Part shown: positions 24,559-40,670 of the stretch, piece after piece | Layout: the number at the start of each line of letters is the position of its first letter | Position numbering within the stretch: position 1 is the first letter of the stretch | Source of the DNA: a bacterium | GTDB taxonomy: Bacteria; JAMCPX01 | DNA: 56,147 nucleotides | Direction: 5' to 3' | Assembly: GCA_021792615.1 (NCBI GenBank) | Contig: JAJYUJ010000018.1 | Coordinates: 1-56,147 of the forward strand | Program-made: the position numbers and the translations under genes | Notes under the pieces: model-generated | What the model saw: the letters and a program-made list of their open reading frames with translations, nothing else | Told to the model about the DNA's origin: nothing | Databases searched by the model: none

Positions 24559-25326
24559 TTATTTCGGTGCACCGTAATAAACAACCTGTTCGCATTCCAT
24601 GCTCGCCGTGCCTGCAGTCCCTATAACGGGACCAATGGTATAGGTATTGCCGCCGAAGCCGAAGCTCGTCGGCAGGGTACTTGCCCGTGAGCCGCTCACA
24701 CTGCCCGGACCGGCAACAGAGGAAAGCTGGCTAAGGGGTATTAATGGGTTGACCGTCGGCGTAAAATAACCCACTGCATAGCTTGATCCTGCGTTTGCTG
24801 TCGGTTTCGGTGTGCTATAAATACCGTTATAGAACGTTGCCTGCGGTGATGATGTCGGAGTATTGACATAGGTACCGTTGATACTGGATGCTACGTAATT
24901 CGGATTCCCCGCAACGTAAAACGGGTGGCTGCACAGATTCGCCATGCCTGCATTGACACCTGCAATTGATGCCACCTTTGCACCAATCTGTGTCCTCTGG
25001 TTGCCGGACAGGCTCACATCCGTTGTCGCAACCATCATTGCACCCATACCTGCTATGGTCAGGGCAACAAGCGAGAGCAGGGTTATGATGAGAACGTAAC
25101 CTGCATTATTGTCATTACGAGCCGTATGCGAAGTAATCTCTCTGCTTATAGATTGCTTCGTCATTCCATTCCTCGCAATGACCTGTTGACTGTCATCGCG
25201 AGCGGCGACGAAGCAATCCTTCAATTCTGGCAGATTGCTTCGTCGTCCGTATAAAGCGGACTTCTCGCAACGACTTGTGTGACCGTTATTGTTAGAAGAG
25301 TAAAATAATTCATTTTGTTTGTTCAT
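24559..25326 (-). CDS. pilX: PilX-like minor pilin with repeat-derived leader
   Basis: 255 residues. The hydrophobic segment AGYVLIITLLSLVALTIAGMGAMM (about 75-98) and the SGNQRTQIGAKVASIAGVN region are typical of PilX-type minor pilins. The first 74 residues are unusual: residues about 17-73 are a translation of two copies of the GTCATTGCGAG repeat family (REITSHTARND, MTKQSISR). The original leader was probably MNKQN...NNAG. The start at 25326 is set by AAGGAGAATACC. PilX works with PilV, PilW, FimT and PilY1 to prime assembly. Prepilin peptidase cleavage at G76 is plausible, although the +5 residue is Ile rather than Glu. Confidence 0.75.
   Translation of the reverse strand: MNKQNELFYSSNNNGHTSRCEKSALYGRRSNLPELKDCFVAARDDSQQVIARNGMTKQSISREITSHTARNDNNAGYVLIITLLSLVALTIAGMGAMMVATTDVSLSGNQRTQIGAKVASIAGVNAGMANLCSHPFYVAGNPNYVASSINGTYVNTPTSSPQATFYNGIYSTPKPTANAGSSYAVGYFTPTVNPLIPLSQLSSVAGPGSVSGSRASTLPTSFGFGGNTYTIGPVIGTAGTASMECEQVVYYGAPK
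25111..25182. repeat. GTCATTGCGAG-family element inside pilX (copy 1)
   Basis: 72 bases starting GTCATTACGAGCCGTATGCG and ending CCTCGCAATGAC. It is nearly identical to the copy at 27581-27652 and is translated in frame as part of the PilX leader. Confidence 0.8.
25192..25274. repeat. GTCATTGCGAG-family element inside pilX (copy 2)
   Basis: It begins GTCATCGCGAGCGGCGACGA and ends TTCTCGCAACGAC, an imperfect inverted pair with GAAGCAATC/GATTGCTTC in the middle. It is adjacent to copy 1 and also in frame with the PilX leader. Confidence 0.7.
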
Positions 25327-25336
25327 GGTATTCTCC

Positions 25337-26992
25337 TTATAAAACGCTGTTTAGATACAGCTTTGTCTGTGTTCTGAGGTTTGGCAGCGGTATGATACCC
25401 TGATATGTTACCCTCTCGTAATTCGCGAGAGGTCCGAGCGTCGGCGTTGGGTAAGGGATGCTCGTTGTATTATGGTCCGCCACCCATAATTGCGGTGCAG
25501 TAGCAACGCTCTGGCTTGGAGAAGAAGACCGCGCAACAATGGTCAGGATCACTGCATTGATGTTCATGGGATTCTGATGCAGCGGCGGAGATGCACTGGT
25601 CGGGTCATAATAGTTGTTTGCAAAAGAAGGAAATACCGGAATAGCCTGCGAACCCATAATGTCGGGATTTGTAGTGCTATTGTCATCCATGATAAATTGG
25701 ACCTGAAAATCCTCGATGTCTTCTGCAAGCGGAATGGGCTGCTGACCGTTTATCTGCATCATCAGGGTCGGGTGGTTCGGATCCGAGTAATCCACATAAA
25801 CATGCACTACGTTGACCTTTTGAATAAAGCCGCTGTACCCGTTCATAATTGTGTTGAACCTTGGTGCATATAGCTGCATTGAATCGATTTCATTATAAAA
25901 CCCCTGATTGCTCGACAGGGGCACATTGTTTACCGCTGCTGCAGTCGGGGCTACAGCGCCATCCGGCCCTATCGTAGCAAGCGCGGATGCAAGAAACGTG
26001 GGGTCTATTAAAAAAACCGTATCAGAGGGCTGTAATCCTATGTAAGGATATATGTTGTTAAAACCTATAGTAATGGGACTATTGGAAGTGTCCATGTTGA
26101 GGTTTACTCCCAAATAACTGGGGTCTCTGTATGCAAAGGTAAGGCTGTCCGTTCCATAGGGCGTACACGCAGTCCAACCTGCTTGATTGCACTGTGTACC
26201 GTCTATGGTTGCCGTTTGATACGTATCCGGTACTCCATTGGCATTACAGTAATACTGTGACGTGTATTGGGAATAATAAAAACAAAATGCCGCAGAGTCA
26301 TGAAATGACGCTAAAGCAGGACCGGCCGCAAAACCCGGGGGCGCTGTGTCTGATTTCGTTATGCCGAATCCTGCATTGGTCATCATGCCTGCAATGGTGT
26401 CAAAGGCTGTGCGTGCATTGTCCTGCAGCTCGGTTGACATGCGCGTTGATGTGTATGCCTTGCTCTGCAGGATGAACGTGCCCATGACGCCTATCAAGAT
26501 GATCGATGACAAGACCAGTGCTACTGCCATTTCAACGAGGGTAAACCCCGTTACATCTGCCAGCCCTTTCTGTAACAAGCCACTTCTTTGCGATAATCTT
26601 TTCAACGCATTCCTCATCCTCCCAAACAATGAACCTTCAAGATGTAACGGGGTAAACCCATCTACATCTGCCAGCCCTTTCTGTAACAAGCCACTTCTTT
26701 GCGATAATCTTTTCAACGCATTCCTCATCCTCCCAAACAATGAACCTTCAAGATGTAACGGGGTAAACCCATCTACATCTGCCAGCCCATTTCGTAACAA
26801 GCTGCTCCTTTGCGATAATCTTTTCAACGCATTCCTCATCCTCCCAAACAATGAACCTTTAAGATGTAACGGGGTAAACCCATCTACTTCCCTTATCGAA
26901 AAATGAGATCTATTCTTAAAACTCTCTGGAGTCCTGCCTTCGCAGGAATAACAGGCATAAGACATTGATTTACGAAATAAAGTATTTGTCAT
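25337..26992 (-). CDS. pilW: PilW-like minor pilin with 149-residue repeat-built leader
   Basis: 551 residues. The prepilin motif is TG-FTLVEM with cleavage after G149 and Glu at +5; the hydrophobic helix AVALVLSSIILIGVMGTFIL follows, and the mature part (about 402 residues) has a PilW-like region (LQDNARTAFDTIAGMMTNAG). The leader is abnormal: residues 36-146 are three tandem 37-residue repeats, each VDGFTPLH(L)..., encoded by a 111-bp DNA repeat, and the first 30 residues contain a translated palindromic repeat. Typical leaders have 6-30 residues. The start at 26992 is supported by AAGGAGATTTCT. PilW is part of the priming complex with PilV, PilX and PilY1. Confidence 0.78.
   Translation of the reverse strand: MTNTLFRKSMSYACYSCEGRTPESFKNRSHFSIREVDGFTPLHLKGSLFGRMRNALKRLSQRSSLLRNGLADVDGFTPLHLEGSLFGRMRNALKRLSQRSGLLQKGLADVDGFTPLHLEGSLFGRMRNALKRLSQRSGLLQKGLADVTGFTLVEMAVALVLSSIILIGVMGTFILQSKAYTSTRMSTELQDNARTAFDTIAGMMTNAGFGITKSDTAPPGFAAGPALASFHDSAAFCFYYSQYTSQYYCNANGVPDTYQTATIDGTQCNQAGWTACTPYGTDSLTFAYRDPSYLGVNLNMDTSNSPITIGFNNIYPYIGLQPSDTVFLIDPTFLASALATIGPDGAVAPTAAAVNNVPLSSNQGFYNEIDSMQLYAPRFNTIMNGYSGFIQKVNVVHVYVDYSDPNHPTLMMQINGQQPIPLAEDIEDFQVQFIMDDNSTTNPDIMGSQAIPVFPSFANNYYDPTSASPPLHQNPMNINAVILTIVARSSSPSQSVATAPQLWVADHNTTSIPYPTPTLGPLANYERVTYQGIIPLPNLRTQTKLYLNSVL
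26555..26887 (-). repeat. three tandem 111-bp repeats in the pilW leader
   Basis: Exactly three 111-bp units (26555-26665, 26666-26776, 26777-26887 by codon boundaries). A partial fourth copy merges into the true prepilin motif: TACATCTGCCAG is shared by repeat and gene, and the repeat sequence GGGTAAACCCATC becomes GGTAAACCCCGTT at the authentic GFTLVEM. The first unit, nearest the start codon, is the most divergent. 111 is a multiple of three, so the frame is kept. Confidence 0.92.
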
Positions 26993-27005
26993 AGAAATCT
27001 CCTTA

Positions 27006-27455: not shown

Positions 27456-27550
27456 AAATAAAACTCCTTCTTAAAGGCCGGCATCCAATATGTCTGGATT
27501 CCCGCGTTCGCGGGAATGACGCACAAGGTAAAACATCTTTGATTTTTCAT
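27452..27550 (-). pseudogene. duplicated, truncated start of a pilV-like gene
   Basis: The frame MKNQRCFTL with a ribosome-binding site (GGAGGAATTATCC) matches the start of pilV (MKNQNGFTL) but then runs into a translated GTCATTCC palindrome (VIPANAGIQ) and ends at the start of the real pilV. It therefore looks like a duplicated pilV 5-prime end interrupted by a repeat at the prepilin motif. Nothing downstream of the motif survives. Confidence 0.7.
27493..27520. repeat. GTCATTCC-family palindrome (copy 3)
   Basis: TGGATTCCCGCG/CGCGGGAATGAC, a single hairpin arm of the family, interrupting the duplicated pilV start. Confidence 0.7.
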
Positions 27551-27580: not shown

Positions 27581-27652
27581 GTCATTGCGAGCCGAATGCG
27601 AAGTAATCTCTCTGCTTATAGATTGCTTCGTCATGTCATTCCTCGTAATGAC
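27581..27652. repeat. GTCATTGCGAG-family element (copy 3)
   Basis: 72 bases, starting GTCATTGCGAGCCGAATGCG and ending CCTCGTAATGAC. The middle AAGTAATCTCTCTGCTTATA is identical to the copy within pilX. Here it lies between the pilV remnant and the FimT-like gene. Confidence 0.8.
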
Positions 27653-27666
27653 TGTTAATTGTATCA

Positions 27667-28479
27667 TCAGTAAAACTCCTTTACCGCACCGGTCAGTCCT
27701 ATGACACCGACCGCGCACTCCCTTCCGCTGTACTTGCTGGTTACATCACTTGACGGAATTATGGTGACACTGCCGCCATTATTGCCGGCAGCCCCGCCAG
27801 CCCCTAAGAACAGGGCAGAGCCGTCGGGCTGGAATGCTATCGCTCCGACATTGCCGGTGCAGAAGGTGCATGAATTCGGTATTGCACAGGGCTGGCTATT
27901 CAATCCCGTAACGATACAATAATCCGTAGCCACGGTAAAACCTGATGCTGAACTCGGGACCAGAGTAGTTGGAAATACTATGGCCGATATCAGGGTATTT
28001 ACCGTGCCGTTGAATTCGCCATTCTGAACACAACCGATGTTTGCATTTTGGCAATTATTATTTGTATCATTTATGGTAAAATAACAGTTTGTCCCCCCTG
28101 CGTTTGTAGGGAGATTTCCAACAGTTGTAGGACAGTTGTCCGCTGTATAGAAAAAAACGACTTGATTGTTGCCGTTTTTTATCGCATTCATCCGTGCCGT
28201 TACCAGGGTATTGGTTATGTTGTCGCATGCACTGCTCGTCTCGAAATTTAAATACCAGCTTCGCATGTTCGGAGAAGCTACGATGGCCATAATGCCTATA
28301 ATCACGATAACAACCATCAACTCCACGAGGGTGAATCCCGAAAAATTATCTATTCCATGATTGTTCCCTGTTGCTTTCTCTAACGGTATAAGGGATTTGT
28401 TCGTCATGTTCATACCATATAAAGAAACAGCTGAGTTTTTTTTATTCCCATTTTCTAACGGGATAAACCCTTTATTCAT
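27667..28479 (-). CDS. FimT/GspH-like minor pilin with duplicated leader
   Basis: 270 residues. The functional motif is SG-FTLVELMVVIVIIGIM with cleavage after G48 and Glu at +5. The 48-residue leader includes two earlier motif-like pieces, KGFIPLEN (residues 3-10) and NKSLIPLEK (27-35), coming from a short DNA duplication (TTTCTAACGGGATAA at both places on the plus strand). Start ATG 28479 has GGAGG upstream. The mature domain has the FimT/GspH N-terminal NMRSWYLNFETSSA. As the first gene of the operon it would initiate expression of the minor pilins. Confidence 0.83.
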   Translation of the reverse strand: MNKGFIPLENGNKKNSAVSLYGMNMTNKSLIPLEKATGNNHGIDNFSGFTLVELMVVIVIIGIMAIVASPNMRSWYLNFETSSACDNITNTLVTARMNAIKNGNNQVVFFYTADNCPTTVGNLPTNAGGTNCYFTINDTNNNCQNANIGCVQNGEFNGTVNTLISAIVFPTTLVPSSASGFTVATDYCIVTGLNSQPCAIPNSCTFCTGNVGAIAFQPDGSALFLGAGGAAGNNGGSVTIIPSSDVTSKYSGRECAVGVIGLTGAVKEFY

Positions 28480-34396: not shown

Positions 34397-35734
34397 TCAA
34401 GCAGCATTATTACTGAAGGCCTGTACATAACTTACTTGAATATCATAACATCTGCCCTTGACGCTGTAGGGGTCTGAAAGTGCCGCTAAATCCTGAGAAG
34501 ATTGTATTCCATTGGGGCAGATTGTTTGTATCCGTTTTGCAACAGATATACTCACTGAATGGTTTTTGTACCACAAAGCTTTATCTATGCTAAATCCTTC
34601 GGATTTCCATTCTACAGCCTTATTCTCCTCAAACCCTGCGTTCTTCCAATCGATAAACTCTTCTAAACTAAACCCTGCTTTGTGCCACTTGAGATATTCT
34701 TCTCTACTAAGCCCGGCAGTATATAAATCTTTAGCCTCATTCGAATTGAGTCCAGCATCTTTCATTTTTCTGGACATAAACGGATCAAAACCAGTTTTTT
34801 TCCATGCCAAGGTTTCCTCTATATCGTATCCTTCATCTTTCCATTCAACATATTCTTCAAGACTTATTCCGGCATCTTTTAACGAATGGGCCTTATCAGG
34901 ATTGAGACCGGCCTTCTCCCATGCCTTAGACATATATGGATCAAAACCTTCATTCTTCCACTTTTCTGCCTCATCCATGTTGAATCCAGCATTTTTCCAT
35001 TGAAGATATTCATAAAAACCAAATCCGGCATCTTTTATTGTCTTAGCAGTGTCGGGACTAAATCCATTATTTTTAAATACCCATGCGTCATGTACATTAA
35101 AGCCAGCCTCTTTCCACTTTGTATACTCATCCATGCCAAATAGTTTATTTTTCAATGCTTGCGCTTCATCTGGATTAAATCCAGCTTCTTCCCATTGCTG
35201 AGCTTCATATTGATTAAAACCGGCCCTTTCCCATTTTTGCGAATCATCTGCTGTCTGATCCGGTCTTAGCCCCTTGTTTCTCCATTCAATAGCTTTATCC
35301 AGGTTGAAACCATCCATCTTAAATTCCACAGCACTCTCTGGATTAAACCCCTTTTTTTCCCATTTCGAATATTCCTCCGGAGTGAATCCCTCGTTTTTTA
35401 AAATGGTAACCTCTGTCAGATTACGGGCCAGGTTCTTCCACTTATGGTATTCATCTATGCTTATCCTGGAATTCCTCAATTCTACGGCACTCGTAAGATC
35501 AATCCCTGCTTGCTTATAGTGTACAGCATCTTTTGGATAGAAACCATTATAACTCCACATAAAAGCATCAGAAGGACTAAATCCATTATAACTCCATTTT
35601 AGACTATCAAAGAAACTAATCCCGTTCCCCTTCCATTTATTCGTATGTATATAAAATATGAGACTACTGAGCACAATAAGAAAAACAACCGTAAAGAGTC
35701 CCCATTTTATTTGTTTGATAAAAGAATATGCCAT
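34397..35734 (-). CDS. membrane-anchored protein of about 24 exact 13-residue repeats
   Basis: 445 residues up to the TGA. An N-terminal membrane helix (IKWGLFTVVFLIVLSSLIFYI, in part) is followed, from about residue 47 on, by repeats of 13 residues of the form GF-x-x-x-[EA]-[YAS]-x-x-W-K-x-A, for example GFNMDEAEKWKNE and GFSLEEFIDWKNA. In the middle the repeats recur in groups of four (YxxW, AxxW, SxxW/M, AxxL types), a 52-residue super-period. The remainder is a Cys-containing region (CPNGIQSSQDLAAL...KGRCYDIQV) that seems to continue beyond the stop. I do not recognise a described family; such repeats usually form helical solenoids. The protein would face the periplasm or outside if the helix is N-in. 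Confidence 0.8.
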   Translation of the reverse strand: MAYSFIKQIKWGLFTVVFLIVLSSLIFYIHTNKWKGNGISFFDSLKWSYNGFSPSDAFMWSYNGFYPKDAVHYKQAGIDLTSAVELRNSRISIDEYHKWKNLARNLTEVTILKNEGFTPEEYSKWEKKGFNPESAVEFKMDGFNLDKAIEWRNKGLRPDQTADDSQKWERAGFNQYEAQQWEEAGFNPDEAQALKNKLFGMDEYTKWKEAGFNVHDAWVFKNNGFSPDTAKTIKDAGFGFYEYLQWKNAGFNMDEAEKWKNEGFDPYMSKAWEKAGLNPDKAHSLKDAGISLEEYVEWKDEGYDIEETLAWKKTGFDPFMSRKMKDAGLNSNEAKDLYTAGLSREEYLKWHKAGFSLEEFIDWKNAGFEENKAVEWKSEGFSIDKALWYKNHSVSISVAKRIQTICPNGIQSSQDLAALSDPYSVKGRCYDIQVSYVQAFSNNAA

Positions 35735-40567: not shown

Positions 40568-40600
40568 CACCATCAGGAATGACGCGAGAATAAATTAAAT

Positions 40601-40670
40601 ATTAAAGATTCAATATTAAAGATTCAATATTAAAGATTCAAGATTAAAGATTCAATATTAAAGATTCAAA
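40601..40670. repeat. 14-bp tandem repeat, five copies
   Basis: Five units of ATTAAAGATTCAAT with only end-base changes. It lies between convergent genes. Related AT-rich fragments (AAATTAAAAATTTAAGATTC near 48030) occur elsewhere. Confidence 0.9.

Follow-up and report, generated by a model that had tools for sequence, protein, structure and literature searches.

The window analyzed here, a stretch of 56,147 nucleotides of bacterial DNA, contains a pilW gene whose product begins with a long and repetitive leader. This raises the question of where the repeats come from and how they relate to the cleavage motif that follows them. The features considered are listed below.

25337..26992, (-): pilW, open reading frame for a 551-aa minor pilin with a 149-residue leader (PF16074 and N_methyl; AAGGAG)
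26549..26881, (-): three-unit array, 111 bp each (GFT plus element, 37 codons)
26864..26881, (-): decoy 1, GFTPLH, left junction
26753..26770, (-): decoy 2, GFTPLH, junction from tandem duplication
26642..26659, (-): decoy 3, GFTPLH, junction from tandem duplication
26531..26548, (-): GFTLVE, the true prepilin motif, restored by the right junction (N_methyl 149-170)
26546..26652, (-): element copy, 107 bp, both ends intact, CCCCGTTACATCT ... AGATGTAACGGGG
26923..26954, (-): separate palindromic repeat of the GTCATTCCTGCGAAAGCAGGAATCC type, read as PilW leader residues about 13-24
27667..28479, (-): gene for a FimT/GspH-like prepilin that carries an insert of this family in decayed form (MNKGFIPLE...SLIPLE...GFTLVE)
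28339..28468, (-): the decayed insert itself, within the FimT-like leader; the orthologues of G006, G007 and G008 have the empty site

The leader of PilW

The protein contains a PilW domain (PF16074, E=8e-7) and, on residues 149-170 in Pfam, an N_methyl segment (PF07963), which identifies it as a PilW minor pilin; AAGGAG, a Shine-Dalgarno sequence at 26999-27004, lies six bases upstream of the ATG at 26992. TRF detects a 111-bp unit in 3.2 copies at 26534-26887 with 95% matches, far more than chance would give, and in codon register the units occupy 26881-26771, 26770-26660 and 26659-26549. The sequence-only reading had placed three 111-bp repeats ahead of the true motif and called the 149-residue leader unusually long. 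TRF and the codon register agree with it, and residue 149 (26548) is the first of the true cleavage motif, GFTLVE. Each decoy has the sequence VDGFTPLH, in which Pro is at +3 and His at +5, in agreement with that reading, and the last repeat does grade into the true motif, with GFTLVE at the right junction. Cleavage of the GFTPLH decoys would plausibly be poor, given the His at +5 and the fact that a hydrophobic stretch does not follow.

Units 2 and 3 differ solely in the last codon, and units 1 and 2 differ at seven bases, five of which alter residues. Because the source assembly is a draft of 77 contigs, the repeat number may be inexact; a pure assembly artifact is argued against by the differences among the copies. 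The 107-bp copy (L225) has 14-bp perfect arms, an RNA fold z of -5.6 and TTTA on either side (26653-26656 and 26542-26545). This variant, which has GTTACA ends, occurs less often than the GTTAGA type, and no GIY-YIG gene matches its interior. The leader is very probably the product of a mobile element that landed in the cleavage motif and was then tandemly duplicated to three copies.

Elsewhere in the window, 34397-35734 (-) encodes a 445-aa protein with degenerate repeats of about 13-14 residues (AGFxxxEAxxWKN), and 40594-40669 holds a tandem array of the 14-bp ATTCAATATTAAAG.

A dispersed element with TTTA duplications

A search of the family for the decoy codons returns nearly one constant nucleotide string, TTTACCCCGTTAGA/CA, most copies of which are outside pilin genes, and an inverted partner, TCTAACGGGGTTTA, is located 60-120 bp from most decoy-type strings. 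The family ends are terminal inverted repeats, CCCCGTTA(G/C)A..T(C/G)TAACGGGG, with a 4-bp target duplication, TTTA. The arms are paired and co-varying, and an Rfam search of the element returned no RNA family. Three features of MITEs, namely terminal inverted repeats, a short target duplication and many copies at unrelated sites, are present, and a GIY-YIG element with the same ends is a candidate for the autonomous partner.

The sequence-only reading had offered two origins for the repeats. That of a spreading repeat ending in this region stands, and that of a duplicated, decayed cleavage motif does not: the GFT of the decoys derives from the TTTA duplication within the motif codons, and the left inverted repeat is read as PLH or PLE. 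It is highly improbable that the repeats were born within pilW, by duplication of the motif region and decay of the upstream copies to decoys. Such an origin would fit the equality of unit length and decoy-to-motif distance and the near-identity of units 2 and 3, but the decoy DNA and its inverted partner also occur between genes, in dapF and in a GspE-type gene, empty sites exist, and the agreement between decoy and motif is limited to TTTA, the Gly codon and a single C after them.

In a scan of the genome collection, end pairs are found in at least nine phyla or phylum-level groups, with a pattern that requires the TTTA flanks and hence is not evidence for them. Among the matches listed are Omnitrophota, Patescibacteria groups, Deltaproteobacteria, Nitrospirae, Nitrospinota, Planctomycetota, Cloacimonadota, Elusimicrobia, KSB1 and WOR-3. 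Of 28 chosen genomes, 24 have matches to a flank-free pattern, a single genome holding up to ~38 copies, and the reversed pattern has no match in the same 28; the genomes compared are mostly drafts. The source genome (G000) holds ~24 copies, and many genomes carry intergenic copies without a pilin role there. Where the flanks were not demanded, exact 4-bp direct repeats are present at 26 of 42 copies, hardly ever longer and nearly always TTTA or TAAA, which is the same on the other strand; the other 16 copies have no matching 4-bp repeats and are located outside pilins. In G394, 20 copies are 94% alike and their flanks are 25-32% alike, like random DNA, with TTTA..TTTA around 17 of the 20.

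Several observations concern the copies themselves. The 20 copies of G394 (L263-L282) all face one way with respect to TTTA, which is odd for a transposase with symmetrical ends. The interiors of L019, L136, L192 and L263 consist of two hairpins and a linker such as AATTCCTTATAGA, common across phyla, L235 (2885-3086) is a copy with another structured insert within it, and six viral contigs (L362-L367) have paired element ends. The ~12 near-identical copies of G000 (L217-L262) were considered as a recent burst, which was rejected, as they are passengers of a larger dispersed repeat.

No autonomous IS was found around the lone ends in G000, and an end-pair search of 1.27 Mb of loci gave no convincing long pair enclosing a transposase. 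No description of the family, of GFTPLE or of GIY-YIG genes linked with such elements was found in the literature searched, which covers few subscription journals. The end sequence does appear in 19 papers, and of the ten listed none deals with an element of this kind. The closest likeness is to several known systems. Rickettsia palindromic elements (RPE), like other protein-coding palindromes, are palindromic dispersed elements of about 100-150 bp, both intergenic and fused in frame in proteins, and are described as Rickettsia-specific (PMC2229807). The present element is likewise intergenic and in frame within proteins, but it differs from the described RPE in its TTTA duplication, its recurrent prepilin-motif target, its occurrence across many phyla and the GIY-YIG gene of its full-length form. 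Terminal inverted repeats, a short target duplication, the absence of genes and many copies are shared with the bacterial MITEs Correia/NEMIS, RUP and ERIC, whereas no IS with the present ends was found and the sole gene found between them encodes an 88-aa GIY-YIG nuclease. REP/REPIN sequences, which are linked to RAYT transposases, are also small, palindromic and often intergenic; unlike them, the present element has ends of the CCCCGTTA type without a GTAG tag and has a target duplication.

Prepilin motifs as landing sites

The target is the TTTA within the GFT codons GGN-TTT-ACN of prepilin motifs. The left junction, GGN TTT A/CC CCG TTA GAA (the slash marks the boundary), encodes GFTPLE, with PLH or PLE read from the left inverted repeat (ACC CCG TTA CAT/GAA), and the right junction, CTA ACG GGG/TTT ACN, encodes LTGFT, with the Gly at -1 from the GGGG of the element itself. 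Because the right end (..ACG GGG/TTTA) rebuilds LTGFT, the protein keeps its cleavage motif and has the insert as part of its leader.

Prepilin motifs are present at 47 right junctions, 41 of which have a recognizable left end; many uncultured bacteria thus carry relatives of the element in this cleavage signal. The inserts are multiples of three in 35 of these 41 (binomial 9e-12) and open throughout in 33. Prepilin motifs occupy 16 of 94 right junctions versus 7 of the 2393 remaining TTTAC sites in those contigs, which were picked for holding the element, and 21 of 63 right junctions in 11 Omnitrophota genomes picked for having one. A search of 386 mostly unrelated genomes for the GFTPL..GFTL pattern returned this family only, with a gap so narrow that the window itself was missed.

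Empty sites are provided by the FimT-like gene at 27667-28479. The orthologues in G006 and G008 have the empty site ATGAATAAGGGNTTTACYCT, where the window has ATGAATAAAGGGTTTATCCCG..GGATTCACCCTC, and those of G006, G007 and G008 have a short leader that is uninterrupted through GGNTTTACNCT. The FimT-like genes of the window and of G001 depart from the empty-site alignment at TTTA and rejoin it at TTTAC or TTCAC. In-frame insertions are also found in dapF (MKLHFT/PLE..LTG/FTKMHALGNDF) and in a PilB/GspE-type ATPase gene. The in-frame copies in dapF, the GspE/PilB-type gene and other proteins are at L137 (1185-2190), L106, L169, L118 and L158.

Translation of PilW probably begins at the upstream ATG. 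A start within the last repeat (the ATG at GRM or the TTG after GAGG), which would give a leader of 23-24 residues and leave the repeats untranslated, is unlikely. Each unit does have an in-frame ATG and TTG, and in the insert-bearing prepilins of L110, L111 and L320 the reading frame does not continue through the insert, which requires a start inside or after it. However, the ATG at 26992 is preceded by a good AAGGAG, the single-copy relatives G001 and G005 have an upstream ATG without an internal one, the frame is kept in most inserts, and the pilW array is open throughout.

The following course of events would account for the leader. A MITE-like, non-autonomous 107-bp element very probably entered the TTTA of the GGN-TTT-AC codons of pilW, duplicating TTTA, and at the right end its terminal GGGG restored Gly-Phe-Thr to the cleavage motif. 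The pilin would still be made because the insert is an open multiple of three, and the inserted residues would be leader for the prepilin peptidase to remove; the insert may be neutral. The peptidase should discard the insert with the leader, and the prepilin motif would therefore be a tolerated landing place; this loss is, we infer, the simplest reason that prepilins tolerate the element. Two later tandem duplications between near-identical junctions (GTAxxxGGGTTTACCC, 111 bp apart), by recombination or slippage, then very probably produced the three copies.

The duplication step is consistent with the relatives. Repeat number does vary, a point that the sequence-only reading had proposed checking: the window has three copies, and the PilW proteins of G001, G004, G005 and G008 have a single insert with a decoy 36-38 residues upstream of the motif, a distance matched by the 37-codon unit of the window. 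The junctions GTAGATGGGTTTACCC (left) and GTAACGGGGTTTACCC (right) are similar enough to allow slippage or unequal recombination. The latest duplicates are units 2 and 3, which are almost completely identical. L076 is an independent tandem insert, and at L156 the rebuilt motif has itself received a second, different element. Several genera retain a one-copy insert in PilW, which might suggest that the long leader is put to use in membrane targeting or in control of the amount of PilW. That is very unlikely, since the linker is unconserved among the relatives and the changes between units 1 and 2 mostly (5 of 7) alter residues.

GIY-YIG genes between the inverted repeats

A full-length form of ~280 bp carries a gene for a GIY-YIG endonuclease of ~88 aa precisely between the same inverted repeats. 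In the source genome, two distant ends bracket an 88-aa GIY-YIG protein. Related proteins in other phyla are likewise enclosed, at 263-290 bp, by two ends that pair and are adjusted to each other, such as TCCCGTTAGAGAT/ATCTCTAACGGGA with TGAA on either side. L283 and L284 were considered as two insertions, which was rejected in favor of a single orthologous insertion. The encoded protein has the GIY-YIG domain (PF01541, E=5e-16) with conserved Y, R and E in the alignment, its nearest solved chains are the UPF0213 proteins 1zg2 and 1ywl, and it was not found in the plasmids searched. The right end codes for its C-terminal LTG; the flanking DNA supplies the stop codon in most free copies. Some short copies retain only the 3' end of the gene. 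At L319 and L328, a complete endonuclease runs in frame into a prepilin, and the full-length element therefore lands in the same prepilin motif; L328 also has a small insert within the GIY-YIG part.

The GIY-YIG endonuclease is, on balance, the probable driver of mobility of the ~280-bp form. It is quite possible, if somewhat doubtful, that its gene is a passenger of another enzyme (Y1/RAYT-type, DDE or tyrosine recombinase). GIY-YIG enzymes are not known to produce target duplications with inverted repeats, which favors a passenger, as does the single orientation in G394. On the other side, the element contains no gene other than GIY-YIG between its ends, and the inverted repeats, which encode the C-terminal LTG, track the GIY-YIG clade: they accompany 14 of 15 proteins of one supported group in the tree and are absent from remoter ones, with none found below ~56% identity. 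Additionally, other GIY-YIG clades are within other repeat families. The domain is shared with free-standing GIY-YIG homing endonucleases and UPF0213-type proteins; in contrast to the former, the present gene exactly fills the space between inverted repeats and is found at unrelated sites, not at one homing site, and the dispersed sites with target duplications would argue against simple homing into a single cognate site.

In a second GIY-YIG clade (L368-L397), GTCATT..AATGAC palindromic repeats are found on the left of 15 of 30 genes, on the right of 22 and on both sides of 13, versus 1 and 0 of 30 in a distance control at 600 bp; the GTCATTCCTGCGAAAGCAGGAATCC-type repeat in the PilW leader belongs to the repeat type that adjoins GIY-YIG genes. 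Gene-free GTCATT..AATGAC copies in the window are at 25111-25182, 27581-27652, 27495-27521 and 26923-26954. At L294 and L297, GIY-YIG genes of further clades are within other perfect inverted repeats (CCCAGCCCCTCC and CCCCGCCCTTCC), with TGAA on either side. By description, the GTCATT..AATGAC repeats appear to resemble the CGTC-tagged REPs, which are reported without a dedicated transposase (PMC3733652), whereas second-clade GIY-YIG genes are found between the repeats here.

The chances appear about even that a ~280-bp self-propagating element (88-aa GIY-YIG nuclease, 4-bp duplication, many phyla) feeds non-autonomous derivatives and uses prepilin motifs as protein-level safe sites, made safe by the peptidase's removal of the insert, and that other clades act likewise for the widespread GTCATT (CGTC-type) repeats. 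Apart from that wider reading, mobile DNA is seen to enter proteins repeatedly where a host peptidase should discard the insert. This explains the odd long prepilin leaders and GFTPLE motifs of many uncultured bacteria, and the leader lengths and start sites of insert-bearing pilins are easily mis-annotated. Additionally, small GIY-YIG nucleases are candidate enzymes for dispersed palindromic repeats, some of which have been reported without a known mobilizer.
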